The notes under the pieces are model-generated. The model was not told where the DNA came from, did no database searches, and saw nothing but the letters and a program-made list of their open reading frames with translations. The translations under genes were made by a program, and so were the position numbers. This document shows, piece after piece, positions 6,251-27,755 of a stretch of DNA of 64,000 bases; positions within the stretch are counted from its first letter, which is position 1; each line of letters starts with the position of its first letter. The DNA comes from Klebsiella sp. RHBSTW-00484 (GTDB taxonomy: Bacteria; Pseudomonadota; Gammaproteobacteria; Enterobacterales; Enterobacteriaceae), in contig NZ_CP055481.1 in assembly GCF_013705725.1 (NCBI RefSeq), positions 4,154,001 through 4,218,000 on the forward strand, read 5' to 3'.

Positions 6251-6700
6251 ATGAAGAAATCAACACTTGTTATTGGCGTCATTGGTGCTGACTGCCATGC
6301 AGTAGGTAATAAAGTTCTGGACCGCGTTTTTACTGGCCATGATTTTCGCGTAATCAATCTGGGGGTGATGGTAAGCCAGGATGAATATATTGATGCCGCC
6401 ATCGAAACCGGTGCTGACGCCATTGTCGTGTCATCCATTTACGGTCACGGCGATATCGACTGCCTGGGACTGCGCGAACGCTGCATCGAACGCGGTATTG
6501 GCGACATTCTCCTCTTCGTCGGCGGTAATCTGGTCGTCGGCAAACACGATTTTGCCGATATTGAGGCCAAATTCAAAGAGATGGGCTTTAACCGCGTCTT
6601 CGCTCCAAGCCACGATCTTGAAGATGTCTGCCAGCTCATGGCCAATGACATAAATCAGCGCCACGGCGTCGAGCAGCGCTGCCTGGAAGAGGCTATCTGA
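6251..6700 (+). CDS. glmS: Glutamate mutase sigma (S) subunit, B12-binding
   Basis: The protein has 149 residues with the cobalamin-binding signature DCHAVG (Asp14, His16, Gly19), followed by SSIYGHGD and the GGN loop, the standard Rossmann-type B12 domain. With the E subunit it converts L-glutamate to L-threo-3-methylaspartate by an adenosylcobalamin radical mechanism, the first step of the methylaspartate route. The symbol follows the glutamate mutase literature (also mutS); it is not glucosamine-6-phosphate synthase. Its stop overlaps the next ATG by one base. Confidence 0.96.
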   Translation: MKKSTLVIGVIGADCHAVGNKVLDRVFTGHDFRVINLGVMVSQDEYIDAAIETGADAIVVSSIYGHGDIDCLGLRERCIERGIGDILLFVGGNLVVGKHDFADIEAKFKEMGFNRVFAPSHDLEDVCQLMANDINQRHGVEQRCLEEAI

Positions 6701-8088
6701 TGCAGACCGTCTCTGTCGATATCGGCTCGACGTGGACCAAAGCAGCCCTCTTCGCGAAGGAGGGAGATGCATTAACGCTGGTTAACCACGTTCTGACCCC
6801 GACCACTACGCATCATCTGGCAGACGGTTTTTTTGCCAGCCTGAATCAGGTGCTAAACGTTGCCGATGCTCGTCCCCTGCTCAATAGCGGTGAAGTGACG
6901 CTAAAGTATTCCTCGTCGGCAAAAGGCGGTCTTGCCGTCGCTGCCATGGGGCTGGTGCCATCCATCACCCTGGAATCTGCAAAGGTGACCGCCCACTCGG
7001 CGGGGGCGAAAATCGCCCAGTACTACTCGTATAAACTCAACCGCCACGATATCGAGTCGCTGGAGGCCTCGCCGCCGGATATCCTGCTATTTACCGGCGG
7101 AACGGACGGCGGCGAAGAGAGCTACGGCCTGGCCAATGCCCATGCGCTGGCAGAGTCAACGCTCGACTGCGCCATTATCTACGCCGGGAATCGTGATATT
7201 CAGGACGACGTGCAGGCTATCCTGGGGCATAAAGATCTGACCACGGTGGACAACATTCTGCCCGACCTCGATCACCCAAATCCTTACGCTGCCCGCAAAG
7301 CCATTTGCGATGTGTTCTTGTCGCGTATCGTCAAAGGTAAAGGGCTGGACGTGATCGTCGGTGAAACCGGTGAAGAGCCGATGCCGACCCCGTGGACCGT
7401 TTATGAGCTGGTCAAAGCCATCAGCGACTACGACAGCGCATGGAAAGAGTTCATGCTGATCGACATGGGCGGCGCCACCACCGATGTCTATTCCGCCAGC
7501 GCGAACACCCTATCACCCGATACCGTCCTGCACGGGGTTCCTGAACCGTTTGTTAAACGCACGGTAGAGGGCGATCTCGGAATGCGCGTCTCCGCGGTGG
7601 TGGTTGGTGAAAGCACCCATGAGCTGGTGAAGGTGGTCTTTGCTCAACAGCCGGAACGTCAGGAGGCCTTTTACGGCTATCTGCGCCATCTGGTCGCCCA
7701 TCCCGATTACCTGCCGCAAGGCGCCGAAGAGACATTCTTCGACGCCCTGCTCGCCGGACTGTGCGTCGGCTACGCCAGCGAACGCCACGCGGGCACCAAA
7801 AAACAGGTCTGCACCTGCGTGGGCAACGTCGATTTACAGATGGGCCGCGACCTGACCACCGTACGCAAAGTCGTCGGTTCCGGGGGATGGCTCTCCCGCG
7901 CCAGCCAGTTCGACATCCATAGCTGGCTGAAATACCGCGAACTGGACGACGACGGCAGACGCATTCTCTTACCCACTCAGTTTGAATATTACCGCGATGC
8001 TAAAGGCCTGCTTCCTCTACTGGCAAACGTTGCCAGGCTCTACCCAGAACTTGCCGCCCGCACCAGCATTCAGTGTTTAACCCTATAA
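6700..8088 (+). CDS. glmL: GlmL/MutL, glutamate-mutase-associated ATPase-fold protein
   Basis: The protein has 462 residues with two ASKHA-fold nucleotide-binding signatures: VDIGSTWTKAALF at residues 5-17 and IDMGGATTDVYSA near the middle. This is the MutL protein coded between the S and E subunits in clostridial and enteric operons. Its role is taken to be ATP-dependent reactivation or repair of the B12 enzyme, by analogy with diol dehydratase reactivases. It is unrelated to DNA mismatch repair MutL. It starts at the last base of the glmS stop. Confidence 0.93.
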   Translation: MQTVSVDIGSTWTKAALFAKEGDALTLVNHVLTPTTTHHLADGFFASLNQVLNVADARPLLNSGEVTLKYSSSAKGGLAVAAMGLVPSITLESAKVTAHSAGAKIAQYYSYKLNRHDIESLEASPPDILLFTGGTDGGEESYGLANAHALAESTLDCAIIYAGNRDIQDDVQAILGHKDLTTVDNILPDLDHPNPYAARKAICDVFLSRIVKGKGLDVIVGETGEEPMPTPWTVYELVKAISDYDSAWKEFMLIDMGGATTDVYSASANTLSPDTVLHGVPEPFVKRTVEGDLGMRVSAVVVGESTHELVKVVFAQQPERQEAFYGYLRHLVAHPDYLPQGAEETFFDALLAGLCVGYASERHAGTKKQVCTCVGNVDLQMGRDLTTVRKVVGSGGWLSRASQFDIHSWLKYRELDDDGRRILLPTQFEYYRDAKGLLPLLANVARLYPELAARTSIQCLTL

Positions 8089-8106
8089 AATTTAAGGCAA
8101 TGACGA

Positions 8107-9552
8107 ATGGAACTCCGCAATAAAAAGCTAACCCATGATGAATTCATGACCGAGCGGCATCAGGTATTGCAGACCTGGCAGACCGGGAAAGATGTTGAGA
8201 AATTCGAAGATGGCGTGAAGTACCAGCAGACCATTCCTGAGAAAAAACGTTTTTCTCACGCCCTGCTGAAGGCCGATCAGGAAGGGAAAACCCTGAGCCA
8301 GCCGCGCGCGGGCGTGGCGTTAATGGATGAGCACATCGAACTGCTTAAAACGCTGCAAGTTGAATGCGACCTGCTGCCCAGTACCATCGATGCCTATACC
8401 CGTCTGAACCGTTATGAAGAGGCGGCGATTGGGATTCAAAAATCCATCGAAGCGGGAACGTCCAAACTGAACGGCCTGCCGGTAGTCAACCACGGCGTTG
8501 CTGAATGCCGTCGAATGACCGAGTCGCTGGAAAAACCGGTTCAGGTGCGTCACGGCACGCCTGATGCGCGTCTGTTAGCTGAAATCTCAATGGCCAGCGG
8601 CTTTACCAGCTACGAAGGCGGCGGCATCTCCTACAACATTCCTTACGCCAAGCGCGTCACCCTGGAAAAATCAATTCGTGACTGGCAGTACTGCGACCGC
8701 CTGATGGGCCTGTATGAAGAACACGGCATCCGCATTAACCGCGAGCCGTTTGGCCCACTGACCGGCACGCTGATCCCACCGTTTATGTCCCACTCGGTGG
8801 CGATTATCGAAGGTCTGCTGGCGCTGGAACAGGGCGTGAAATCCATCACCGTCGGCTACGGCCAGGTCGGTAGCCTGACGCAGGATATCGCGGCGATTCA
8901 ATCCCTGCGCGAACTGTCGCACGAATACTTCGGCAATTATGGCTTCGACGATTATGAGCTGAGTACCGTCTTCCACCAGTGGATGGGCGGCTTCCCGGAA
9001 GATGAATCTAAAGCGTTCGCTATTATCTCCTGGGGCGCGGCGGTGGCCGGTATGTCCGGCGCGACCAAAGTGATTACCAAGAGCCCGCACGAAGCCTTCG
9101 GCATTCCGACGGCTGCCGCTAACGCCCAGGGCCTGAGGGCGTCACGCCAGATGCTCAACATGGTCAGCGACCAGAAATTCCCGCCATGCGCTGCCGTTGA
9201 GCAGGAAGTGGATCTGATCAAGAGCGAAGTTCGCGCCGTACTGAAGAGGGTTTTCGAACTGGGCAACGGCGATATCGCTCGCGGCACGGTACTGGCTTTC
9301 GAAGCCGGCGTGCTGGATGTGCCTTTCGCTCCGGCCTCTTGTAACGCGGGCAAAATCCTGCCGGTTCGCGATAACTCAGGCGCCATTCGCGTGCTTGAAG
9401 CCGGCGCGGTTCCGCTGCCAAAAGACATTCTCGCCCTGCACCATGATTACGTCGCCGAGCGTGCGAATTTCGAAGGACGCAAGCCTTCATTCCAGATGGT
9501 TGTTGATGACATCAACGCTGTATCCCACAGTAAATTAATAGGAAGACCATAA
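8107..9552 (+). CDS. glmE: Glutamate mutase epsilon (E) subunit, catalytic
   Basis: The protein has 481 residues, close to the 483 of the Clostridium tetanomorphum enzyme, and forms the TIM-barrel subunit that binds glutamate and houses the radical chemistry. Recognisable stretches include the GFTSYEGGGISYNIPYAK segment and the VGYGQVGSLTQDI segment. It forms a tetramer with GlmS around adenosylcobalamin. It begins 18 bases after glmL and its stop overlaps the next gene by one base (TAATG), so stoichiometric translation is likely. Confidence 0.96.
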   Translation: MELRNKKLTHDEFMTERHQVLQTWQTGKDVEKFEDGVKYQQTIPEKKRFSHALLKADQEGKTLSQPRAGVALMDEHIELLKTLQVECDLLPSTIDAYTRLNRYEEAAIGIQKSIEAGTSKLNGLPVVNHGVAECRRMTESLEKPVQVRHGTPDARLLAEISMASGFTSYEGGGISYNIPYAKRVTLEKSIRDWQYCDRLMGLYEEHGIRINREPFGPLTGTLIPPFMSHSVAIIEGLLALEQGVKSITVGYGQVGSLTQDIAAIQSLRELSHEYFGNYGFDDYELSTVFHQWMGGFPEDESKAFAIISWGAAVAGMSGATKVITKSPHEAFGIPTAAANAQGLRASRQMLNMVSDQKFPPCAAVEQEVDLIKSEVRAVLKRVFELGNGDIARGTVLAFEAGVLDVPFAPASCNAGKILPVRDNSGAIRVLEAGAVPLPKDILALHHDYVAERANFEGRKPSFQMVVDDINAVSHSKLIGRP

Positions 9553-10793
9553 TGAAAATTAAACAGGCCCTTTTTACCGCTGGCTACTCTTCATTCTATT
9601 TTGACGACCAGCAGGCGATTAAAAATGGCGCGGGTCATGATGGATTCATGTATACCGGCGCGCCGGTTACCCCGGGCTTTACGTCGGTGCGCCAGGCGGG
9701 CGAGTGCGTCTCGGTACAGCTGATTCTGGAAAATGGCGCGGTGGCGGTCGGTGATTGCGCCGCCGTACAGTACTCCGGCGCGGGCGGCCGCGATCCGCTG
9801 TTCCTGGCGGAAAACTTTATCCCGTTCCTCAATGATCATATCAAACCGCTGCTCGAAGGCCGCGATGTCGATACGTTCCTGCCGAACGCCCGCTTCTTCG
9901 ACAAGCTGCGTATCGACGGCAACCTGCTGCATACCGCCGTCCGCTACGGCCTGTCTCAGGCGCTGCTCGACGCCACCGCGCTGGCAAGCGGTCGCCTGAA
10001 GGCGGAAGTGGTTTGCGACGAGTGGCAGCTGCCGTGCATCCCGGAAGCGATTCCTTTATTTGGTCAGAGCGGCGACGACCGCTACATCGCCGTCGACAAA
10101 ATGATCCTCAAAGGCGTGGACGTGCTGCCGCACGCGCTAATCAACAACGTCGAAGAGAAGCTGGGCTTTAAAGGCGAAAAACTGCGTGAGTATGTGCGCT
10201 GGTTGTCCGACCGAATCCTCAGCCTGCGTACCAGCCCACGCTATCACCCGACGCTGCACATTGATGTCTACGGCACCATCGGTCTGATCTTCGATATGGA
10301 CCCGGTGCGCTGCGCCGACTATATCGCCAGCCTGGAGAAAGAAGCGCAAGGTCTGCCGCTCTATATAGAAGGCCCGGTAGATGCCGGTAACAAACCGGAT
10401 CAGATCCGTATGCTGACCGCCATCACCAAAGAGCTGACTCGTCTGGGTTCCGGCGTGAAGATTGTCGCCGACGAATGGTGCAACACCTATCAGGACATCG
10501 TTGACTTCACCGATGCCGGTAGCTGCCACATGGTGCAGATAAAAACCCCGGATCTTGGCGGTATTCACAACATCGTGGATGCGGTGCTGTACTGCAACAA
10601 ACACGCGATGGAAGCCTATCAGGGTGGTACCTGCAACGAAACCGAGATCAGCGCCCGCACCTGCGTACACGTTGCGCTGGCCGCACGTCCTATGCGCATG
10701 CTGATCAAACCAGGCATGGGCTTCGATGAAGGTCTCAACATCGTGTTTAACGAAATGAACCGCACCATCGCGCTGTTGCAGACTAAGGATTAA
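9552..10793 (+). CDS. mal: Methylaspartate ammonia-lyase
   Basis: The protein has 413 residues, the length of the Citrobacter amalonaticus enzyme. All key residues of this enolase-superfamily member fall at the published numbers: catalytic His194 and Lys331, and Mg ligands Asp238, Glu273 and Asp307. It removes ammonia from 3-methylaspartate to give mesaconate in the cytoplasm, the second step after glutamate mutase. It is coupled to glmE by a one-base overlap and stands 3 bases before the AtuA-like gene. Confidence 0.97.
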   Translation: MKIKQALFTAGYSSFYFDDQQAIKNGAGHDGFMYTGAPVTPGFTSVRQAGECVSVQLILENGAVAVGDCAAVQYSGAGGRDPLFLAENFIPFLNDHIKPLLEGRDVDTFLPNARFFDKLRIDGNLLHTAVRYGLSQALLDATALASGRLKAEVVCDEWQLPCIPEAIPLFGQSGDDRYIAVDKMILKGVDVLPHALINNVEEKLGFKGEKLREYVRWLSDRILSLRTSPRYHPTLHIDVYGTIGLIFDMDPVRCADYIASLEKEAQGLPLYIEGPVDAGNKPDQIRMLTAITKELTRLGSGVKIVADEWCNTYQDIVDFTDAGSCHMVQIKTPDLGGIHNIVDAVLYCNKHAMEAYQGGTCNETEISARTCVHVALAARPMRMLIKPGMGFDEGLNIVFNEMNRTIALLQTKD

Positions 10794-10796
10794 GAG

Positions 10797-12167
10797 ATGG
10801 CCCGTACATTTAAGATCTTATCGCCTACGGCTATTCTGGGTTATGGCTTCCCGGAAGAGAGTTTTCGTAAAGCCATGGAAGAGTCGCCAGATCTTATTGC
10901 CGTTGACGCAGGTTCATCCGATCCCGGCCCCCACTACCTGGGGGCAGGTAAACCCTTTACCGACAGGGCCGGAGTGAAACGCGATCTGCGCTATATGATC
11001 GTCGCTGGCGTGAAAAACAACATTCCAGTCGTCATTGGCACCGCCGGCGGTTCTGGCGCTGCCCCGCATCTGGAGTGGTGTCGTCAGATAATTCATGAGA
11101 TTGCGCAGGAAGAAAAACTGTCTTTCTCTATGGCGCTAATCCCGTCTGATGTTGATAAAGAAGTTGTTCATCAGGCGCTGGATAACGGCAAAATTACCGC
11201 GCTGGATTTTGTCCCGGAACTGACTCACGAGGCTATCGAAGAGAGCACCTACATCGTCGCACAGATGGGGATCGAACCTTTCCAGCGGGCGCTGAAAGCC
11301 GGTGCGCAGGTGGTATTGGGTGGACGCGCTTACGATCCGGCCTGCTTTGCCGCCCTGCCAATTATGCAGGGTTTCGATGAAGGGCTGGCGCTGCACTGCG
11401 GCAAGATCCTTGAATGTGCGGCCATTGCCGCCACGCCGGGTTCCGGTTCCGACTGCGCCATGGGGATTATCGACGATCACGGCTTTACGCTGAAAGCGTT
11501 CAATCCAAAGCGTAAGTTCACCGAAACCTCCGCGGCGGCGCATACCCTGTATGAGAAGTCCGATCCGTACTTCCTGCCGGGCCCTGGCGGCGTGCTGAAC
11601 CTGAAAGGGTGTACCTTTAAAGCCGTCAACGAGGGCGAAGTCTACGTCAGCGGTTCACGTCACGAAGAAACACCGTACGCACTGAAGCTGGAAGGTGCTC
11701 GTCAGGTCGGCTTCCGCTGCCTGACCATTGCCGGAACGCGCGACCCGATCATGATAGCCGGGATCGATAACATTCTCGAAGAGGTACAAGCCAGCGTGGC
11801 GCGCAACCTCTCGCTGACTGACGACAGTATCCGCATGACCTTCCACCTGTACGGTAAGAACGGCGTGATGGGCAACCATGAGCCGATGAAAACAGCCGGA
11901 CACGAGCTAGGGATTTTGCTGGATGTGGTCGCGCCAACTCAGGATATCGCCAACAGCGTCTGTTCGCTGGTGCGCTCTACCCTGCTGCACTATGGCTATG
12001 AAAATCGCATTGCAACTGCAGGTAACCTCGCCTTCCCGTTCTCACCGTCTGATATTCAAAGCGGGCCGGTGTATGAGTTCTCTATCTATCACCTGATTGA
12101 AGCCAGCGACGCGCTGCGTTTTGATTTCCATATTGAACAGGTGACGCCAGAAGGAGTTCAGGCATGA
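10797..12167 (+). CDS. AtuA-like (DUF1446) protein of the methylaspartate operon, function unassigned
   Basis: The protein has 456 residues and belongs to the acyclic-terpene-utilisation AtuA/DUF1446 family. Gly- and acid-rich motifs are visible: DAGSSDPGPHYLG near residue 37, GTAGGSGAAPHLEW near 81, GGRAYDP near 178 and ATPGSGSDCAMG near 213. The family has no well-defined reaction that I know of. Its place 3 bases after methylaspartate ammonia-lyase and its four-base overlap with the DUF4387 gene imply a role in the same route, perhaps on mesaconate or citramalate. That role is inference. Confidence 0.85.
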   Translation: MARTFKILSPTAILGYGFPEESFRKAMEESPDLIAVDAGSSDPGPHYLGAGKPFTDRAGVKRDLRYMIVAGVKNNIPVVIGTAGGSGAAPHLEWCRQIIHEIAQEEKLSFSMALIPSDVDKEVVHQALDNGKITALDFVPELTHEAIEESTYIVAQMGIEPFQRALKAGAQVVLGGRAYDPACFAALPIMQGFDEGLALHCGKILECAAIAATPGSGSDCAMGIIDDHGFTLKAFNPKRKFTETSAAAHTLYEKSDPYFLPGPGGVLNLKGCTFKAVNEGEVYVSGSRHEETPYALKLEGARQVGFRCLTIAGTRDPIMIAGIDNILEEVQASVARNLSLTDDSIRMTFHLYGKNGVMGNHEPMKTAGHELGILLDVVAPTQDIANSVCSLVRSTLLHYGYENRIATAGNLAFPFSPSDIQSGPVYEFSIYHLIEASDALRFDFHIEQVTPEGVQA

Positions 12168-17400: not shown

Positions 17401-18030
17401 ACAGCGCGCAACGCAGCTTCCACTTTTCTCCCCAGAGCCATCAGGTCGTCGACACCACTGATTTATGCAACAACCAGTCGCGGAATACCTGTAAATGCCG
17501 GGATTCCGCTTTATCTTCCTGCCACGTCATAATAAAACGGTTTCCGGTGCGAATCGGCACATCGCAAGGAATGACCATCTCGCCGCTATCGAGATCGTGC
17601 TGAATGGCAAAACGCGGTAGCAGCGCCACCCCCAGATTCGAACGCACCGCCGCAATCAGCATCGATAGCAGGTCAAAACGCGGGCCGATATTAATCTGCG
17701 CGCTGGTGATATTCGACAATGCGAACCACTCCTGCCAGCCGTGAATTCGTGTGCTTTGATGCAGCAACGGAAATTCACCCAGCAATTCCTCGACCGCCAG
17801 CTTTTGACCAGGGTCTGATAGCAGCCCGCAGCCGCATACCGGTAGGATCTCCTCTTCGAATAAGTACTCAACCTCCGTCCACGGCGAGCAAAAATCCTCG
17901 CGCATGATGGCGGCATCATACTCACGGCTGAGAAAATCGCCAATATTAGCCAGCGAATGAATATTGACGATAATACCCGGGTTTAATTTATTAAACTCAC
18001 GCAGATTAGGGATTAACCAGTGGGTGCTAA

Positions 18031-19225
<1,195 letters not shown>

Positions 19226-19554
19226 CTAAAGGTGGGGTTCACTGCCAGTTCAAGAACCCGCACCGTCGGCTGCCAGGTCATAATTGAATTGGTATCACGC
19301 TCCAGCTTGTTAAGCGTTTCCTTAACGATGGGCAAATAATGCTTGCCCGCCGCATTTAAAAAAATCCTTTTTTTCACATGATTAAATAATGACGTATGGA
19401 GGAAATCCTCCAGCGCCGTGACTTGTCTGAACACGGCGCTTTGTGTTAAAGCTAACTCTTCCGCTGCTCGGGTATAGCTTTCATGGCGAGCCACAACTTC
19501 AAAGGTCACCAGCAATTCGGTTTTGGGGATTTTTCCTCTCATAACGTCTTCCAT

Positions 19555-19933: not shown

Positions 19934-20614
19934 CTATGACGATGCCGAGAGAGACTGCTGGCGGAATGATTGCGGCGTAGTGCGATGTGCCATGCGGAAC
20001 ACTCGACAAAAGTAGCTGGTTTGTGCGTACTGCAGCTTTCGGGCGACGCCATCTATCGAATACGCAGGATCGCCAAGCAGTTCCCCGGCTCGCTGCATTC
20101 TCTTCTGGCTCACCCAGACTTTGAAATTCACCCCCTGCTGCTTTTTAAAAAAGCGACTAAAGTAATTGGCGCTCAGGCAAACATGAGCCGCTACCGATTC
20201 GAGAGACAACTCATCATATAAATGCTCATCAATATAACGTAGGGCAGAGGCCATTTTTATTTCATGCGATGCACGTTGCGCATAATAAAAATCACTATTT
20301 CGGCGAGATTGCTTATTCGCGATCACTTTTATCCCCTCAACCGGCGTGACATTATTCACAATAAAATGAAGTAATCTTTCTGCCGCCAATCGATGACTAT
20401 TGTCGATGGCCTTACTGTGGTCACAAATAATATATCCCCACACTTTTTCAAAACGCATGAGGGGCAGTGAAAAGAAATTTAACCCTGCATAGCGGCCAGG
20501 CAATCTCTCCCCGCGGGTATCAATAACCACGGCGACCAGACCGGTTGCACGAGAAAAGGTCGTTGCCAACGAAGAGAAAAACTGGTGTTCATCATCCCTG
20601 TCTCTTTGCTGCAC
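19934..20614 (-). CDS. AraC-family regulator with a PocR-like sensory part
   Basis: The protein has 226 residues. The C-terminal 100 form the two helix-turn-helix AraC domain: IDEHLYDELSLESVAAHVCLSANYFSRFFKK, then a second helix pair ending YFCRVFRMAHRTTP. The N-terminal part (GLVAVVIDTRGERLP, then YAGLNFFSLPLM) resembles the PocR sensory domain but lacks the Cys-rich middle that PocR domains usually have. It is divergent from the sugar-acid operon, 381 bases away, and is its likely regulator. The PocR link is my reading of a few motifs. Confidence 0.85.
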   Translation of the reverse strand: MQQRDRDDEHQFFSSLATTFSRATGLVAVVIDTRGERLPGRYAGLNFFSLPLMRFEKVWGYIICDHSKAIDNSHRLAAERLLHFIVNNVTPVEGIKVIANKQSRRNSDFYYAQRASHEIKMASALRYIDEHLYDELSLESVAAHVCLSANYFSRFFKKQQGVNFKVWVSQKRMQRAGELLGDPAYSIDGVARKLQYAQTSYFCRVFRMAHRTTPQSFRQQSLSASS

Positions 20615-20995: not shown

Positions 20996-22252
20996 ATGGC
21001 CGTCACAACAGGGGTTATCGCCGACGATTTTACCGGCGCAACGGATATAGCAAGTTTTATGGCAGAACAGGGCTGGCGAGTCGCGCTATTGCCCGGAATG
21101 CCCGACCTTACGCAGCAGTGGAACGAAGAAGTTGATGCCATTGTTATCTCGCTGAAAAGCCGCTCTCTGCCCGCAGAGCAGGCCGTCGCCCAATCGCTGG
21201 CTTGCGCCCGGTGGCTAAAACAAAATGCAGGCGTCAGGCAAGTCTATTTCAAATACTGCTCAACGTTTGACTCTACACCACACGGCAATATTGGCCCGGT
21301 GAGCGATGCCCTGATGGAAGCGATGCAGCTCCCGCTTATCGTTCATTGCCCCGCCCTGCCGCAAAACGGACGCACGGTGGTGCACGGTCATCTGTTTGTC
21401 AACGGTGTTCTGTTGAACGAGTCCGGCATGGAAAAGCATCCGCTTAATCCGATGACCGATGCCAATTTGTCACGTCTGCTGTCCGCGCAAACGCCAAACG
21501 CCGTTGGCAATATTGATCTCAATACCATTCGCAGCGGTGTGCAAGCAGTCACTCACGAGCTGACCAGCCTTAAAGCTGAAGGAAAACGCCACGTGATTGT
21601 CGATACGCTGGACGAAGCCGATCTCCACACGCTAGCCCAGTCGCTACATGACTCACCCTTGTTAGCCGGAGGTTCCGGGCTCGGCGGCGCGCTGGCCGCC
21701 AACGCCGGTGCTCAGCAGACATCACCACCGCAGGACTTTCCGCACCCCGTCAAAGCGATGGTCTTTTCCGGGAGCTGTTCGGCGATGAGCAACCGTCAGG
21801 TCAATCGCTATAAAACGGCAGCGGCCTCTCGTTTGCTCGACGTAGCACGTTGCCTGTCGGACGCCGAGCGCTATACCGATGAGCTATCCCAGTGGGCCAT
21901 GTCGCATATCAGCGACCCGCATGCGCCGCTGATTTACGCCACCCAGCCACCTGATGCGCTAAAACGCATTCAGCAAGAGTATGGCGAGCAGCCCGCCAGC
22001 CAGGCGATTGAACATACGTTTGCCCGGCTGAGCGCGAAGCTCCAGGCCGCAGGCGTGAACACCTTTATTGTTGCTGGTGGCGAGACATCCGGCACCGTCG
22101 TGGAAGCGCTACAGGTCACGCGCCTGTCCGTCGGCAAGGCCATCGCCCCAGGGGTTCCATGGGTCTTCTCCGCCGAACTGGCGCTGGCGTTGAAGTCAGG
22201 CAATTTTGGCGACGAAGATTTCTTTTTTACCGCCCAGGAGTACACATCATGA
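20996..22252 (+). CDS. Four-carbon acid sugar kinase (OtnK-like, DUF1537)
   Basis: The protein has 418 residues, the usual size of OtnK (3-oxo-tetronate 4-kinase). It begins with the family signature IADDFTGATDIASF (residues 8-21), then YFKYCSTFDSTPHGNIGPV near 80, and the C-terminal nucleotide-binding part VAGGETSGTVVEAL with KSGNFG. The family phosphorylates 3-oxo-tetronate, erythronate or threonate derivatives in the cytoplasm. It is the first gene of the operon and overlaps the aldolase gene by four bases. The true substrate is not fixed by sequence. Confidence 0.92.
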   Translation: MAVTTGVIADDFTGATDIASFMAEQGWRVALLPGMPDLTQQWNEEVDAIVISLKSRSLPAEQAVAQSLACARWLKQNAGVRQVYFKYCSTFDSTPHGNIGPVSDALMEAMQLPLIVHCPALPQNGRTVVHGHLFVNGVLLNESGMEKHPLNPMTDANLSRLLSAQTPNAVGNIDLNTIRSGVQAVTHELTSLKAEGKRHVIVDTLDEADLHTLAQSLHDSPLLAGGSGLGGALAANAGAQQTSPPQDFPHPVKAMVFSGSCSAMSNRQVNRYKTAAASRLLDVARCLSDAERYTDELSQWAMSHISDPHAPLIYATQPPDALKRIQQEYGEQPASQAIEHTFARLSAKLQAAGVNTFIVAGGETSGTVVEALQVTRLSVGKAIAPGVPWVFSAELALALKSGNFGDEDFFFTAQEYTS

Positions 22253-22893
22253 GCCCGGTGAGTGAGCAACAACTTCGCGAGCAGCTCGTCCATTATGGTC
22301 GCTCTCTGTTTATGCGCGGCTACAGCAGCGGCGGCTCCGGCAACCTGAGCGTTAAGCTCGCGGATGGCGGTTATCTGGTCACCCCAACCAACTCCTGTCT
22401 GGGAGAACTTGACGCCGCAACGCTGAGCAAACTGGATGCCAACGGCGTTCATCTCAGCGGCGACAAACCGTCGAAAGAGGTGCCGATGCATTTGGCATGG
22501 TATCGCCACCGTCCCTCCTGCGGAGCAGTGGTTCATCTGCATTCGCCGTGGCTGACCGCACTCTCTTGTCTGCCGTGTGAAACACCGGAGAACTGCCTGC
22601 CGCCATTAACGCCATACTACGTGATGCGCGTCGGGCAGTTGCCGCTGCTGCCCTACTTCAAACCTGGACATGAAGGCATTGCCAGCGCGCTTAGCGAAAT
22701 CGCCGCTGACCACACGGCGGCGCTGCTGGCCAACCACGGCCCGGTCGTCAGCGGTCGCTCGCTGCGCGAAGCGGTATTTAACGCCGAGGAGCTGGAGGAC
22801 AGCGCCCGCATCTGGTTGACCTTAAAACCGCTCGGTTACGTACCGCTCTCAGTTGAGGCAGTAGCCGAACTCGAACAATCCCGGCGAGCGTGA
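22249..22893 (+). CDS. Class II aldolase family protein (OtnC-like, 3-oxo-tetronate 4-phosphate decarboxylase)
   Basis: The protein has 214 residues from the ATG overlapping the kinase stop. Zinc-binding features are VVHLHSPW near residue 92 and ALLANHGPVVSGRSL near 160; the N-terminal GGSGNLSVK substrate loop is present. In the Otn pathway OtnC decarboxylates 3-oxo-tetronate 4-phosphate to dihydroxyacetone phosphate. Overlap with the kinase gene supports the same job here. Other class II aldolases (fuculose- or ribulose-phosphate type) are less likely given the partner kinase. Confidence 0.91.
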   Translation: MSPVSEQQLREQLVHYGRSLFMRGYSSGGSGNLSVKLADGGYLVTPTNSCLGELDAATLSKLDANGVHLSGDKPSKEVPMHLAWYRHRPSCGAVVHLHSPWLTALSCLPCETPENCLPPLTPYYVMRVGQLPLLPYFKPGHEGIASALSEIAADHTAALLANHGPVVSGRSLREAVFNAEELEDSARIWLTLKPLGYVPLSVEAVAELEQSRRA

Positions 22894-22899
22894 GGTGAG

Positions 22900-23709
22900 A
22901 TGATGATCCCCGAACAACGACGTGACTTTATCTATCGCTACGTTCATGAAAAAAACGTCGCCTCATTTAATGAGCTGGCGGACTTGATGAGTGTGTCGCA
23001 TATGACCGTGCGCCGCGATATTCAATTGCTGGAAGAGGAAGGCAAAGTTATCTCGATTAACGGCGGCGTGAAGCTCAATAACCTGCTGAAGTCCGAGCTG
23101 CCGTGGCGGGAAAAGGCGGAGTTGCATCATGAGGTAAAACGCAAAATGGGTCAGCTTGCCGCCATGCTGATTGAGCCGGGGCAAACGCTGTATCTGGATG
23201 CCGGAACCTCGCTGTTTGAAGTGGCGAAAGCGGTGGCCGCCAGCCACTGCTTTAACCTGACCGTGGTGACGAACGACTTCTCCATCAGCCACTACCTGAT
23301 GGACATGCCGCATATCACCCTCTATCACACCGGCGGTCTGGTGGATCAGCGCAACCGCTCAAGCCTTGGCAAAAGTGCGGCCAGCTTTTTACGCACCATT
23401 AATATCGACGTGGCGTTTCTCAGCTCCTCGTCGTGGGATACCGAGCGCGGCATGTCGACCCCCAGCGAAGGCAAAGCCTCGGTCAAAGAAGCGGTTCTCA
23501 CCGTTTCCCGCCGCCGGGTGCTGGTCTGCGACAGCAGTAAATTTGGCAAGTACGGGATGTTCCATATCTGCGGTCTGGATCAGCTAACCGATATTATTTC
23601 TGACAATCAGCTGCCAGATGATGCGCAACAAGCCATCGCCAATCAGGGGGTAAAACTGCACCTGGTCGATAGCCGGGAGGGGAAACATCATGCTGAAATT
23701 AGCGGCTAA
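22900..23709 (+). CDS. DeoR-family transcriptional regulator of the sugar-acid operon
   Basis: The protein has 269 residues. An N-terminal winged helix (FNELADLMSVSHMTVRRDIQLLEEEGKV) is followed by a DeoR sugar-phosphate sensor domain (YLDAGTSLFEVAKAV, TVVTNDFSI, VLVCDSSKFGK). Such proteins usually repress the operon they lie in until a phosphorylated intermediate binds. Here it lies inside the operon, third, which suggests autoregulation. Two ATGs stand in tandem (22900, 22903); either may be used. Its end overlaps the next gene by 20 bases. Confidence 0.93.
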   Translation: MMIPEQRRDFIYRYVHEKNVASFNELADLMSVSHMTVRRDIQLLEEEGKVISINGGVKLNNLLKSELPWREKAELHHEVKRKMGQLAAMLIEPGQTLYLDAGTSLFEVAKAVAASHCFNLTVVTNDFSISHYLMDMPHITLYHTGGLVDQRNRSSLGKSAASFLRTINIDVAFLSSSSWDTERGMSTPSEGKASVKEAVLTVSRRRVLVCDSSKFGKYGMFHICGLDQLTDIISDNQLPDDAQQAIANQGVKLHLVDSREGKHHAEISG

Positions 23710-24472
23710 CCTTGACTGGTTGTTTACTGAATTGCCGATAGCAGCACGCTTTCAGGCGGCAAAAGACGCGGGTTTTCGCGGCGTGGAGGGGCTGTTTCTC
23801 TGGCAGCATCCGCTGGAGACGTTGCTGGAAGCTCAAGGGCAAACCAGCCTGCCGGTAGTGCTAATGAACGCCCCAGCAGGCCACTGGCAGCAGGGTGAAC
23901 GGGGGCTGGCGGCGTTACCGGGCCGCGATGAGGAGTTTCGCCACAGCCTGAATCTGGCCCGGGAATACGCCACAGCGTTAGGCTGCCGCCGGGTTCACGT
24001 GATGTCGGGCCTGCGCTGTGATTCTCTCACCCTCAACGCTCAGCGCACTCTTCTAACCGACAGATTGCGCAGCGCCTGTGATGTGATGGCGGAAGCGGGA
24101 ATCGACGTACTTATTGAGCCATTAAATCCGCAGGATATGCCGGGCTATATGATTGATAACTTTCCGCTGGCCGAATCCATTATTCACGAGGTCGGCCGGA
24201 AAAACATCGGCTTGCAGTTTGATATTTACCACTGCCAGAAAATTCACGGCGATGTGGTAAAAAATATTGAATGTTATTTCCCATTGATAAAACACTTTCA
24301 GATTGCCTCTGTTCCTTATCGTCATGAACCAGGAACCGGAGAATTAAATGAAAAATGGATTTTCGATTTTATTGAACAACTGAATTATCAGGACTGGATC
24401 GGCTGTGAATATCAGCCGTCAACATCAGGACCTGAATCATTACACTGGATAACGCCTTACCTACAATTTTAA
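23690..24472 (+). CDS. TIM-barrel sugar isomerase (OtnI-like 2-oxo-tetronate isomerase)
   Basis: The protein has 260 residues in the hydroxypyruvate isomerase/OtnI family: MLKLAANLDWLFTELP at the start, a metal-site VLIEPLNPQDMPGYMID segment near residue 144, GLQFDIYHCQKIHGD near 178 and GCEYQPS near the end with its conserved Glu. OtnI interconverts 2-oxo- and 3-oxo-tetronate. It starts inside the DeoR gene after a strong GGGAGGGG site. Together with the OtnK- and OtnC-like genes it makes three steps of an Otn pathway, but no dehydrogenase gene is present. Confidence 0.91.
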   Translation: MLKLAANLDWLFTELPIAARFQAAKDAGFRGVEGLFLWQHPLETLLEAQGQTSLPVVLMNAPAGHWQQGERGLAALPGRDEEFRHSLNLAREYATALGCRRVHVMSGLRCDSLTLNAQRTLLTDRLRSACDVMAEAGIDVLIEPLNPQDMPGYMIDNFPLAESIIHEVGRKNIGLQFDIYHCQKIHGDVVKNIECYFPLIKHFQIASVPYRHEPGTGELNEKWIFDFIEQLNYQDWIGCEYQPSTSGPESLHWITPYLQF

Positions 24473-24500
24473 TATTGCTATCTCTGTACCGGAGGAATAA

Positions 24501-25313
24501 ATGTCGGATACCGTTATTATCTCACTGGCGCCCGTGGCCGCGGATTGCCCCAGAGTGATACCTGAGGAACTGGCGCAGGAAATACTCGCCAGCGTGGAAC
24601 ATGGCGCGGCCATTGTTCATTTGCACGTTCGCGATCAACAGGGGCGCCTGACCCCGGACACCCGTGATTTTCAGGCGACCATCGACTGCGTGATGCGCCA
24701 CTCAGACCTGATTATTCAGGCCTCAACCGGCGGTGTTTCAGCGATGTCCATCGCTGAACGCTGCGCCCCGCTGACCTGCCCCGGCGTGGAAATGGCCTCG
24801 CTGAACGTCGGTTCCGTCAACCTCGGCGATGTGGTCTATTTTAATCCTGGTCCGGATGTTGAATATTGCTCCCGGCAAATCACCGAGCGCAATATTATTC
24901 CGGAATTTGAAGTTTTCGAAATTGGCATGATTAATAACATCCTCACTCTACAAGATAAGATTAAATTTAAACAGCCGATGTTATTTAACATCGTCCTGGG
25001 ACATCGCGGCAGCACCCCAGCCACCGTTGATGCCTTAATTGCTCTGCGCAGTATGATTCCGCGCGATGCGTTATGGGGAATTACCCATTTCGGCAGAAAG
25101 AACTTCGATATTATTGCCGCTGCGGTTGGCATGGGTGCCAGCGAAGTGCGTATCGGTTTTGAAGACAGTTATTATTTAAGCGTTGAAGAACGCGCTGAAC
25201 ATAATTACCAGCAGGTCGCCAAACTTGCCACGTTGATTCGTAGCATGGATAAAAAAGTCGCCACGCCAGAAATAGCGCGGCAAATGTTAGCCATTCCGCC
25301 CCGGCAGCAATAA
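24501..25313 (+). CDS. Beta-keto acid cleavage enzyme (BKACE, DUF849 family)
   Basis: The protein has 270 residues with the BKACE zinc site: HLHVRD at 40-45 and the Glu of RIGFED (Glu221), the counterparts of His46, His48 and Glu230 in the founding 3-keto-5-aminohexanoate cleavage enzyme. The family condenses a beta-keto acid with acetyl-CoA, releasing acetoacetate and a new acyl-CoA. Members vary widely in substrate. Its addition to an Otn set is unusual; 3-oxo-tetronate is itself a beta-keto acid and would be a chemically reasonable, untested substrate. Confidence 0.9.
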   Translation: MSDTVIISLAPVAADCPRVIPEELAQEILASVEHGAAIVHLHVRDQQGRLTPDTRDFQATIDCVMRHSDLIIQASTGGVSAMSIAERCAPLTCPGVEMASLNVGSVNLGDVVYFNPGPDVEYCSRQITERNIIPEFEVFEIGMINNILTLQDKIKFKQPMLFNIVLGHRGSTPATVDALIALRSMIPRDALWGITHFGRKNFDIIAAAVGMGASEVRIGFEDSYYLSVEERAEHNYQQVAKLATLIRSMDKKVATPEIARQMLAIPPRQQ

Positions 25314-25332
25314 CGAGGAAGGACATTTCATT

Positions 25333-26679
25333 ATGACTATGACGAGCGTTATACATAAAGCCGGGCTCGGCGTCAGCATCGCCGGTATCGCGCTGGCGGC
25401 AATTGGCGCGCTGATGCAGTCACCAGCTCTCTGGCAGCCCGGACTGGTGATGTTCACCGCCGGATTTGCGGCAGGCGCAGGCTACTGGCCCGGATTACGC
25501 AGCTACCAGTTTACGCTGTGGATCATCGCCGGTTTTGTCGCCGCGATGACCTGGTCTACAGATCTGATCGTCTGGGGCGGTTTCAATATCACCCATAAAT
25601 GGATCGTGTTTTTGGTTATCCAGGCCACCATGTTCAGCATGGGCACCAAGTTGACGATCCAGGATTTTATCGACGTCGCCAAAATGCCGTGGGCGGTATT
25701 TATCGGCACCTTCTGCCACTTCGTGATCATGCCGCTGCTTGGCCTGAGCATTACCCTGATCTTTGATTTTCCGCCTGAAGTGGCGGTGGGTATTCTGCTG
25801 ATCGGCGCCTGTCCGAGCGGCCTCTCTTCGACGGTAATGGTGTATATCGCTAACGCCAACCTGGCGCTGGCCGTTTCCATCGCCGCAGTTTCGACGCTGG
25901 CGGCAACGGTGATGACGCCGCTATGGGTGAATTTGCTGGCCGGTTCCATGATCGATATTCAGCTCACCGCGATGGTGATGGACGTGGTGAAAATCGTGCT
26001 CATCCCTATCGGCGCGGCGATTTTACATGACTACCTGAAAACTTACGCTGGCGTGCGCGGCCGTCGTACCGTGCAAGTTCTGGCCGGGATTGGCGCTCTG
26101 TGGCTGCTGTATATGAGCGCCGGTGGCTGGGAGGCACAGTTCGGCTCCGCCAGCGCAGAAGCGCAAATGTACGCGGTAGTGCTGAACTTTGTCGCAGGCG
26201 GTCTCGTCTGGGCGCTGTTCTACAACTGGCTGTACGGTCGCGTTGAGAGCATTAAGAAGATTATGCCGACCATCTCAATGATCGGGATTATTTTCTTCAC
26301 GACTACCGCCGCAGCCGCAGGGCGCGACAACCTGGTGCAGGTCGGCTTCCTGCTCTGCTTCGCCATGCTGATGCACAACCTCGGCGGCTTCCTGATTGGC
26401 TACCTGATGAGCCGCTGGATCTTCCGCATGGATGTACAGTCCGCCCGCACCGTGGCCTTTGAAGTCGGCCTGCAAAACGGCGGCATGGCCTCAGGACTTG
26501 CCGCCGCCATGGGCAAACTGGCGACCGTCGGCCTCGCCTCGGCGGTAATGACCCCGCTTGGCAACGTCAGCGGCTCGCTGCTCGCCAACTACTGGCGCAA
26601 AAAAGATGCCCGCCAGGCGCAGGCGGCAGCCGCTCAACAGACGCATCAGCCCGTTTCTGAACATCTTTCAAAAGGATAA
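25333..26679 (+). CDS. Bile acid:sodium symporter (BASS) family transporter
   Basis: The protein has 448 residues. After about 80 residues with extra hydrophobic segments comes the BASS core: TMFSMGTKLTIQDF near 100, the crossover motif LIGACPSGLSSTVMVYIANANLALAVSIAAVSTL near 155-190, and EVGLQNGGMASGLA near 380. The family imports organic anions (bile acids, pantoate, 2-oxo acids) with sodium. Here it is the only transporter of the operon and probably brings in its acid substrate. The first hydrophobic segments are an addition relative to shorter ten-helix BASS proteins. Confidence 0.9.
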   Translation: MTMTSVIHKAGLGVSIAGIALAAIGALMQSPALWQPGLVMFTAGFAAGAGYWPGLRSYQFTLWIIAGFVAAMTWSTDLIVWGGFNITHKWIVFLVIQATMFSMGTKLTIQDFIDVAKMPWAVFIGTFCHFVIMPLLGLSITLIFDFPPEVAVGILLIGACPSGLSSTVMVYIANANLALAVSIAAVSTLAATVMTPLWVNLLAGSMIDIQLTAMVMDVVKIVLIPIGAAILHDYLKTYAGVRGRRTVQVLAGIGALWLLYMSAGGWEAQFGSASAEAQMYAVVLNFVAGGLVWALFYNWLYGRVESIKKIMPTISMIGIIFFTTTAAAAGRDNLVQVGFLLCFAMLMHNLGGFLIGYLMSRWIFRMDVQSARTVAFEVGLQNGGMASGLAAAMGKLATVGLASAVMTPLGNVSGSLLANYWRKKDARQAQAAAAQQTHQPVSEHLSKG

Positions 26680-26682
26680 TTC

Positions 26683-27105
26683 ATGATGACTACTCTGACC
26701 TTACAGCAAGCAATACGTGCCGTGGAGAGTGCGCTCACCCTCGCCGAAAATCGTTACGCAAATCGCCCGCTAAGCGTGGCGGTGTGCGATGCCTGCGGGG
26801 AGCTGCTGAGCTTTGCCCGCATGGATACAGCCAAACTGTTAACCATTGAGCTGACTCAGCGCAAAGCACGCACCAGCAGCCGCTTAGGCTGCACCACCCA
26901 GGCGTTTTTGCAGCGCCTGCAAAAAGAACAGTTAGATATTGGTTATTTTGCCGACCCGCGTTTTACCGCCCTGCCCGGCGGAGTTCCAATTCTGCATGAC
27001 GGTAAATGCCTGGGCGCCGTCGCGGTCGGCGGCCTGTCAGCACAGGAAGATCATGATGCGGCAATGACCGTCGCGGAAAATTTGCTTAAGGAGATTGTCC
27101 AATGA
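26683..27105 (+). CDS. HbpS/GlcG-like (DUF336) small protein
   Basis: The protein has 140 residues, a single DUF336/GlcG domain. Landmarks are LSVAVCDACGELLSFARMD near 34, the GGVPI turn near 105, and GAVAVGGLSAQEDHDAA near the end. Relatives include HbpS (haem binding), GlcG and the C-terminal domain of PduO. They recur in catabolic operons without a settled role. It starts 3 bases after the transporter stop and overlaps the next gene by four bases, so it is clearly part of the operon. Confidence 0.87.
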   Translation: MMTTLTLQQAIRAVESALTLAENRYANRPLSVAVCDACGELLSFARMDTAKLLTIELTQRKARTSSRLGCTTQAFLQRLQKEQLDIGYFADPRFTALPGGVPILHDGKCLGAVAVGGLSAQEDHDAAMTVAENLLKEIVQ

Positions 27106-27755
27106 AAAAAGTCGCTATGTTGCACACCAGTGCCGCCACCCTCGCCATGATGCAGCAGCTAATTGCCGACATCATGCCGGAAGTCGACGTGATGCACCTG
27201 GTCGAAGAGTCCATGATTAAACAGGTGATGAAGGCCGGAGGCGTAACGCCAAATATTGCCGCCCGCATCGCCGACTATGTGCATATCGCCGAAAAAGCGG
27301 ATTGCGATATCTTTATTACCGCCTGCTCCTCAATTGGCACCGCGGTCGAACAGTGCCAGTTTATGACCCCGCTCCAGCTTGCGCGTATTGATTGCGCGAT
27401 GGTGGAGGAGGCCATCAGTAAAGGCGAGCGTATCGCCGTGCTGGCAACCGTCGCCACCACGCTGAAGCCGACGCTGGATTACGTGCAGCGCAAAGTCCAG
27501 GAAAGCGGTCAGCGGCGCACTATCACGCCAATACTAATGGAAGAAGCCTTCCATGCGCTGTTAGCGGGAGATATGGACACCCACGATCGTATCGTCAGTG
27601 AAGGATTAAAGAGCGCGTTTACTCAGGCGGATGTGGTGATGCTGGCTCAGGCCTCGATGGCGCGGGTATTACAGCAGCTCCCTGCCCCGCCGGTACCGGT
27701 AATGACCTCACCGGAAAGCGGCATTCGCTGGCTGAAGGCGCTGGCGGAAAGCTGA
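27102..27755 (+). CDS. Asp/Glu/hydantoin racemase-fold protein with one active-site Cys
   Basis: The protein has 217 residues. The first-half catalytic loop is present as FITACSSIG (Cys75). At the place where two-base racemases have a second Cys (typically GCTH) it reads VVMLAQASMARV, with no Cys. This argues against plain racemase activity and for another reaction on the same fold, such as decarboxylation or isomerisation of a keto or hydroxy acid. It is the last gene of the operon and faces sucD across a shared terminator. Confidence 0.85.
   Translation: MKKVAMLHTSAATLAMMQQLIADIMPEVDVMHLVEESMIKQVMKAGGVTPNIAARIADYVHIAEKADCDIFITACSSIGTAVEQCQFMTPLQLARIDCAMVEEAISKGERIAVLATVATTLKPTLDYVQRKVQESGQRRTITPILMEEAFHALLAGDMDTHDRIVSEGLKSAFTQADVVMLAQASMARVLQQLPAPPVPVMTSPESGIRWLKALAES

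Follow-up and report, generated by a model that had tools for sequence, protein, structure and literature searches.

Introduction

Breakdown of L-threonate is described as a pathway of LtnD, OtnI, OtnK and OtnC, next to which a three-step bypass exists; there, OtnI, 3-OtnK and 3-OtnC give way to 2-OtnK, a DUF1537 kinase, and 2-OtnC, an F_bP_aldolase (PMC12540250). Rhamnogalacturonan II (RG-II) is portrayed as a conserved plant pectin with aceric acid as one of its hallmark sugars (PMC12168206), and BT1003 as the 3-C-carboxy-5-deoxy-L-xylose (aceric acid) hydrolase of its breakdown (PMC5698469; PMC10850190). The subject of this study is a set of eight plus-strand genes at positions 20996-27755 of a 64,000-nucleotide stretch from Klebsiella sp. 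RHBSTW-00484 (contig NZ_CP055481.1, positions 4,154,001 to 4,218,000; this whole stretch is called the window hereafter), which combines Otn-type genes with a BKACE-like (DUF849) protein. In the list of open reading frames (ORFs), intergenic gaps do not exceed 28 bp and three gene pairs overlap, as expected of one operon. We see an even chance that this operon serves to break down a branched sugar acid, with aceric acid as the best candidate, by a route without a dehydrogenase.

In an earlier note made from the letters of the window, the locus had been described as an Otn-type kinase, decarboxylating aldolase and isomerase accompanied by BKACE, BASS, HbpS-like and racemase-like genes. The eight ORFs and their family calls were borne out, with the isomerase scoring below the OtnI cut-off. 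That note makes no connection with aceric acid or RG-II, which was drawn from relatives of the operon. Among the papers listed in a literature search of titles and abstract openings, which left most subscription journals outside and hence does not prove absence, none gives an account of bacterial aceric acid metabolism; among the papers listed on BKACE, DUF849, DUF1537, oxo-tetronate and RG-II, none links BKACE to RG-II or aceric acid.

Conserved gene neighbourhoods of BKACE relatives

A genome scan yielded 194 loci with relatives of the window BKACE, of which the best 80 (46-97% identity) were compared. Locus partners were assigned by our own ORF calling and phmmer (E ≤ 1e-5), with some loci extending less than 10 kb per side. 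Relatives of the racemase-like protein are encoded in 75 of the 80 loci, those of HbpS in 31, of the BASS transporter in 26 and of the OtnK/C/I trio in 25; a more distant DUF1537 kinase is found in 39 BKACE loci. The set of BKACE, racemase, HbpS, BASS and Otn genes thus recurs beyond chance. All 25 OtnK loci also carry the racemase-like and HbpS genes, in combination with BASS in 21 and TRAP transporters in five of them. At least three arrangements of the trio exist, i.e. within one operon as in the window, after TRAP genes (L033), or divergent from a TRAP-HbpS-racemase-BKACE group (L035, L036, L043). The otnC genes of L138 and L141 were missed by ORF calling and recovered by tblastn, L071 was scored as lacking a kinase since only the C-terminal part is present, and L067, a short contig, has no full kinase gene. 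Taxonomically, the BKACE family was seen in gut Lachnospiraceae, Citrobacter, Klebsiella, Yersinia and Gilliamella, together with the racemase-like family.

The loci also differ in how the substrate may be supplied. A BASS or TRAP acid importer is encoded in 43 of the 80 loci and an RG-II-type glycosidase in 28, both in a single one (L069) and neither in ten; here, one or two scanned members underlie each glycosidase cluster label, and all 17 the GH127 label. For GH127 alone against importers, Fisher's test gives p = 1e-5 (80 loci, kinship of the loci uncorrected). Importers and RG-II-type glycosidases almost never share a locus, and cells would seem to obtain the acid in one of two ways, by uptake of the free molecule or by its release from an oligosaccharide. 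On the genome level, importer-type genomes with BKACE commonly lack a GH127 of the aceric-acid-hydrolase type over E 1e-50. The same scan of BKACE genomes gave a match in 18 of 39, including 11 at 700 bits or more.

The missing dehydrogenase

The earlier note had pointed out that the operon lacks an LtnD/OtnD-type dehydrogenase, and the window indeed contains no 3-hydroxyacid dehydrogenase: the 13 NAD_binding_2 matches of the host genome (E ≤ 0.001) all lie outside it. Four of these matches are strong (168-187 bits), the remainder reaching 36.6 bits at most. Three of the strong ones are tartronate-semialdehyde reductases (two proteins, 580.8 and 619.5 bits) and a sulfolactaldehyde reductase (584.9 bits), and the fourth, at 2242012, looks like a 6-phosphogluconate dehydrogenase by its size. 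The model for L-threonate dehydrogenase (ThreonDh, NF043037) gave 169.7-203.5 bits on those three proteins vs 350 needed, and that for D-erythronate dehydrogenase (ErythonDh, NF043036; DenD) at best 59.4 bits in the host genome vs 325 needed. A plain tetronate dehydrogenase encoded elsewhere, part of what the earlier note had named as speaking against its proposal, was hence looked for by family in the host genome and not found. Besides otnK, the host harbors two further DUF1537 genes, one for a D-threonate kinase (524 bits, cut-off 450) and another adjoining a PdxA gene. A 572-aa frame at G000:C1:3646316-3646993 (L089), beside a PdxA gene, encodes a DUF1537 kinase that is preceded by a part resembling PTS glucitol IIB at the N-terminus.

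The relatives give a similar picture. LtnD was searched for (NF043037, E ≤ 1e-80) in 26 proteobacterial genomes with the BKACE module, DenD being outside this search. None of the 25 genomes with the OtnK/C/I trio at the BKACE locus encodes LtnD, nor do the called ORFs of the 25 trio loci include any LtnD relative; the only genome without the trio at the BKACE locus, Winslowiella (L020), does encode it. In L020 as well as in G021, G022 and G023 (L030, L031 and L032), all without the trio at the BKACE locus, LtnD is found together with OtnK, OtnC and OtnI elsewhere in the genome (471-489 bits, cut-off 350). G050 and G054 carry OtnK and OtnC side by side on short contigs. A DUF1537 search covered 14 genomes that have no kinase at the locus and, as a check, three that have one there; 12 of the 14 carry a DUF1537 gene elsewhere, while G038 and G040 have none. 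From this pattern, the BKACE module would need OtnK and OtnC, whether they are encoded beside it or in a threonate operon, and a module with its own Otn set would not need LtnD. This distribution of LtnD argues that the module supplies oxo-tetronate directly.

Another clue comes from Pelosinus and Sporomusa (L061, L078 and L080), where BKACE is accompanied by a DUF1537 kinase and an F_bP_aldolase (assigned by clusters, with L061 scanned). This is the same Pfam pair as 2-OtnK/2-OtnC and, as a candidate only, points to oxo-tetronate as the module product, because two different kinase/decarboxylase pairs of the oxo-tetronate type appear to serve the module. Taken together, the upstream half of the pathway (BKACE/racemase) very probably feeds oxo-tetronate to OtnK and OtnC without oxidation by LtnD. 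In line with the earlier note, which had the operon start from an already oxidised or larger acid, these data support a starting acid that requires no LtnD- or DenD-type oxidation, i.e. no ThreonDh or ErythonDh over cut-off in the host and no LtnD in the 25 trio relatives.

Across the 80 loci, only L046 (10821-11705) and L071 (11479-12372) have an LtnD relative in their called ORFs. Both proteins are tartronate-semialdehyde reductases over the NCBIfam cut-off, encoded shortly downstream of BKACE, and neither locus has a full kinase gene.

GH127 and a proposed link to aceric acid

The nature of the substrate is suggested by 17 Clostridial BKACE loci that encode a GH127 protein. All 17 proteins match one NCBIfam model only, that of aceric acid hydrolase (NF049879), the first with 769 bits. 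The nearest solved structure of the one protein tested is 5mqo, presumably BT1003, with 532 bits vs 344 for the next. Further Clostridial neighbours include an apiosidase, GH78, GH106-like and GH42 proteins, fitting RG-II side chains.

This is supported by an even sample of 397 genomes from the Lachnospiraceae, the family of G046 (Mediterraneibacter agrestimuris). GH127 of the aceric-acid-hydrolase type (E ≤ 1e-180) occurs in 17 and BKACE (E ≤ 1e-80) in 22 of the 397 genomes, and all 17 GH127 genomes also have BKACE. Fisher's test, with kinship uncorrected in both cases, gives p = 1.6e-24 when the centre genome is left out and p = 1.4e-15 when the nine genomes recognised as those of BKACE loci already known are removed (9/9 vs 4/379). 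With the centre included, BKACE lies within 10 kb of GH127 in 12 of 18 cases, at 18 kb in one and on other contigs in five. In a class sample of 391 genomes, GH127 was found in five and BKACE (E ≤ 1e-60) in nine, with two genomes sharing both (the centre G046 and G309, the genome of L075).

Two of the class-sample genomes, G380 and G207, combine GH127 with a racemase-like protein, a TIM-barrel isomerase, a split transketolase and a transaldolase-like protein, and have no BKACE (G380 was scanned, and G207 is 77-92% identical to it). In the 20 kb covered for G251, none of these partners is present. In L110 (3911-11105) and L111 (8948-16122), the gene of an aceric-acid-hydrolase-type GH127 shares a BKACE-free operon with genes for a racemase-like protein, a TIM-barrel isomerase, a split transketolase, a GntR protein and a transaldolase-like protein. 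It is possible that such operons represent a second route with an FSA-type aldolase in place of BKACE; the transketolase may serve apiose instead, and these operons are not used as evidence here.

Two loci contain fused frames. In L072, from a Roseburia metagenome-assembled genome, one frame (6602-9958) encodes GH127 (residues 1-651) and a DUF1537 kinase (about 655-1118), and in L077 (Murimonas, flagged UNVERIFIED_CONTAM) one frame (8555-10798) encodes a DUF1537 kinase and BKACE. Both may result from a sequencing indel.

Additional observations concern the pectin setting of some loci. A family of 574-591 aa (c34) is encoded beside rhamnosidases and BKACE in six loci (e.g. L034, 6006-7730). One copy gave no Pfam or NCBIfam match and two copies no usable solved-structure match; c34 is maybe a new RG-II glycosidase family, a DHA hydrolase having been considered as one possibility. 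In L049, L051 and L086, BKACE, the kinase and another racemase subtype are located near altronate dehydratase-like and glucuronidase-like genes, as recognised by eye from their N-termini.

The BKACE-like protein and the candidate isomerases

The BKACE-like Zn TIM-barrel protein (24501..25313, plus strand) matches PF05853 (225 bits, cut-off 24.8) and has the BKACE fold. It was aligned with 79 of the 80 relatives, the fused frame of L077 being left out, and the tree was calculated with two outgroups. The Zn ligands H40, H42 and E221 as well as the Glu base E137 are kept in 79/79 relatives. In contrast, the window protein and all 79 relatives feature F139 at the position of the canonical catalytic Tyr, which is Tyr145 in CcaKce and Tyr173 in PdKce (PMC12871164). 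Because of this replacement, coenzyme A (CoA)-dependent cleavage by the window protein is doubtful. The suggestion of the earlier note that BKACE offers a second, acetyl-CoA-dependent outlet for oxo-tetronate is therefore not followed here, all the more as a kinase is already present. H168 (79/79), T195 (79/79) and H196 (76/79), located at strand ends, are not found in five aligned DUF849 structures. R199 (79/79) matches Arg226 of BsfD, a contact to the CoA adenosine, and the position of BsfD Lys254 is occupied by V228. We tentatively assign BKACE as the lyase, acting by a retro-aldol reaction, at somewhat less than even odds.

Two further proteins are candidates for a preceding isomerisation. 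The Asp/Glu-racemase-like protein (27102..27755, plus strand; PF01177, 56 bits, cut-off 31), a predicted isomerase or epimerase, agrees with the family profile and fold. Cofactor-independent Asp/Glu racemases have two catalytic Cys. The window protein retains one conserved Cys: the first (C75) is invariant, and the presumed place of the second is taken by Q183-x-S185-M186 in 29/29 aligned proteins, so that it departs from the two-Cys pattern. No solved structure was matched by sequence at E ≤ 1, and no NCBIfam model was matched. The second candidate is the otnI/hyi-like sugar-acid isomerase (23690..24472, plus strand), which stays below the cut-offs of NF043033 (292, cut-off 325) and TIGR03234 (281.6, cut-off 353) and may act as an aldose-ketose isomerase. 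Its nearest solved structures are 3ngf and YgbM (1k77), and putative metal-site motifs are kept in the alignment.

Proposed pathway

Aceric acid, which occurs in the pectin RG-II, is the sugar 3-C-carboxy-5-deoxy-L-xylose. The free acid would be imported by the BASS transporter and then isomerised by the OtnI-like and/or the racemase-like protein from the aldose to its 2-keto form, the β-keto acid HOCH2-CO-C(OH)(COOH)-CHOH-CH3. A retro-aldol cut of this keto form by the BKACE-like Zn enzyme, with no CoA-dependent cleavage, could afford acetaldehyde and 3-oxo-tetronate. The latter may be phosphorylated by OtnK and subsequently decarboxylated by OtnC to dihydroxyacetone phosphate (DHAP) and CO2. 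Of the interpretation given in the earlier note, import by the BASS transporter (as an inferred step) and an entry to oxo-tetronate via BKACE or the racemase-like protein are thus retained, with the second outlet dropped as set out above. An alternative in which BKACE acts on 4-keto-aceric acid with acetyl-CoA was considered and rejected; it needs an oxidation, and no dehydrogenase is conserved in the 80 loci.

Since the Enterobacteria and the GH127-linked Clostridia fall in different BKACE clades, aceric acid as the Enterobacterial substrate is deduced from shared partners, and its transfer from relatives of about 50% identity to the window operon may equally well prove right or wrong. A broader picture, somewhat more tentative again than the lyase assignment, is a common aceric acid pathway in cross-feeding Enterobacteria, which would import the acid, and in RG-II-degrading Clostridia, where GH127 would release it inside the cell, keyed in both by a BKACE-fold retro-aldolase with a single-Cys racemase-fold isomerase before it. 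If true, this would provide a function for a DUF849 subfamily and the racemase-like family, a new C-C bond-cutting reaction for the BKACE fold and an explanation for Otn operons without a dehydrogenase, and it would connect gut Enterobacteria with pectin breakdown through cross-feeding on its products. The prediction specifies genes, substrate and products.

Counter-evidence and alternative explanations

Several observations weigh against a pathway from aceric acid. Its assignment rests on relatives of about 50% identity in a separate BKACE clade, and in the tree of 79 relatives the Enterobacterial clade is not nested in the GH127-linked Clostridial one. Every GH127 protein stays below the NF049879 equivalog cut-off of 950 (best 806 bits) and may release another sugar, and in the class sample three of five GH127 genomes (G380, G207, G251) have no BKACE. 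OtnI is present in 25/25 otn loci, though it would be superfluous if BKACE yields 3-oxo-tetronate. The GH127-linked Clostridial operons lack a conserved TIM-barrel sugar isomerase, so isomerisation there would fall to the racemase-like protein, a family for which we know of no such reaction. The Phe at the Tyr position is not unique, as it also occurs in the DUF849 structure 3no5 and in L006 and L007. Lastly, the tartronate-semialdehyde reductases of L046 and L071 find no place in the proposed pathway.

Part of this would be accommodated if DHA or apionate rather than aceric acid were the substrate of the operon. Such a substrate would account for the retention of OtnI, the separate Enterobacterial clade and the fact that GH127 is found in 0/25 otn loci. 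Yet, the racemase-like partner is common to otn and GH127-linked loci, the kinases belong to one Pfam family, and the co-occurrence of GH127 with BKACE is complete in the family sample (GH127 being the only glycosidase tested genome-wide), and we consider this substrate change unlikely. A canonical BKACE reaction, converting a β-keto acid and acetyl-CoA into an acyl-CoA and acetoacetate (or an analogue), either at the start of the pathway or as another outlet for 3-oxo-tetronate, is suggested by the conserved fold, Zn ligands, Glu base and Arg equivalents, including R199 as the counterpart of the CoA-adenosine-contacting Arg226 of BsfD. However, the canonical mechanism requires an α-hydrogen on the substrate, and keto-aceric acid has none. 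Moreover, no β-keto-acid-forming dehydrogenase is conserved across the loci, V228 takes the place of BsfD Lys254, and the catalytic Tyr is Phe in 79/79 relatives (PMC12871164), which together make this reaction decidedly improbable.

Two further explanations remain. If BKACE and the racemase-like protein made up a two-gene pathway of their own, ending in products at the pyruvate or acetyl level, with the Otn genes as mere neighbours, loci such as L030 and L032, which contain only BKACE, racemase-like and TRAP genes (L031 adds HbpS), would be readily understood, as would the tartronate-semialdehyde reductases of L046 and L071 and the lack of any DUF1537 gene in G038 and G040 (2/14 genomes without a kinase at the locus). 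This is highly improbable given that G020-G023 all encode LtnD with OtnK, OtnC and OtnI elsewhere, that 12 of these 14 genomes have a DUF1537 gene at another place, and that fused frames link the kinase to both BKACE and GH127. Even less probable is an ordinary threonate or erythronate Otn operon with an unrecognised dehydrogenase elsewhere and four accessory extra genes. OtnK and OtnC are true family members and LtnD-containing Otn operons are known (E. coli was positive in the control of the LtnD search); nevertheless, the extra genes keep together in different phyla, LtnD is found in none of 25 genomes with the same arrangement, and LtnD and DenD stay under cut-off in the host, on which grounds a plain threonate operon had also been rejected as a candidate. 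Hence, entry of a branched acid, with aceric acid as the favoured one, at the level of oxo-tetronate is the reading preferred here.

Operon layout and distribution

The operon starts with otnK (20996..22252) for a 3-oxo-tetronate kinase of the DUF1537 family (NF043035, 530 bits, cut-off 350; Pfam SBD_N and NBD_C), followed by otnC (22249..22893; NF043034, 296 bits, cut-off 250), for which the ATG at 22249 was chosen as start, the ORF as listed beginning at 22159. Next is a gene for a YgbI-like DeoR-family repressor (22900..23709; PF00455 and PF08220; NF040890, 256 bits, below the cut-off of 400). Between the BKACE-like and racemase-like genes lie those of the BASS-family transporter (25333..26679), a predicted acid importer that matches PF01758 (SBF, 105 bits, cut-off 24.3) and stays below the cut-offs of PanS and TIGR00841 (165 bits vs 326), and of an HbpS/GlcG-like small protein (26683..27105; PF03928, 104 bits, cut-off 25). 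All of these are on the plus strand. An AraC/PocR-like regulator gene (19934..20614, minus strand; PF12833; PocR, 150 bits, below the cut-off of 500) is divergent from the operon and, by its position alone, possibly regulates it. Promoter and terminator signals were no more frequent in the operon than in shuffled sequences. Further upstream, a LysR-type regulator (17441-19554) lies in two pieces on either side of a transposase-like ORF (18063-19079, recognised by eye). The compared relatives L008-L010 have an intact single LysR-type gene of 304 aa, and the split probably stems from an insertion sequence.

The host genome comprises 6.9 Mb. In a genus sample, a close form of the operon (88-97% identity) is present in three of 19 other genomes (G005, G017 and G010) and any match in four; the coordinates of G017 and G010 coincide with L009 and L015. 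E. coli genomes gave no megablast match to the operon, and no plasmid record covered 80% of it, the best matches listed being otn pieces.

Comparison with known systems

With the LtnD-OtnI-OtnK-OtnC pathway for L-threonate, which we take to be encoded by the E. coli ygb operon, the locus shares OtnK and OtnC over curated cut-offs, an OtnI-like protein, a YgbI-like DeoR regulator and DHAP as the expected product. It differs in the absence of LtnD from operon and genome, the addition of BKACE, HbpS, racemase-like and BASS genes, and an OtnI under cut-off. BT1003 (5mqo) is the structure nearest to the Clostridial GH127 (532 bits, one protein), whereas the window has no GH127 and the Clostridial relatives fall under the equivalog cut-off. 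In comparison with the BKACE/Kce enzymes of the DUF849 family (2Y7F, 8RIP), the window protein has Phe for Tyr, the conserved H168, T195 and H196, and a linkage to a sugar-acid kinase. BsfD from flavophos biosynthesis (DUF849; 9ZSC series) shares the Phe in place of the canonical Tyr, and its chemistry is known to depart from that of BKACE; however, BsfD functions in phosphonate biosynthesis, uses acetyl-CoA, has no sugar-acid context and differs at the positions of H168, T195 and H196. In the oxidative D-apiose pathway, Carter et al. 2018 reportedly found OiaK, a 3-oxo-isoapionate kinase, along with a dehydrogenase and a RuBisCO-like protein; to our knowledge, no BKACE or racemase-like gene belongs to it. 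The two systems have in common a DUF1537 kinase for a branched α-hydroxy-β-keto acid, with keto-aceric acid being the methyl homologue of 3-oxo-isoapionate.

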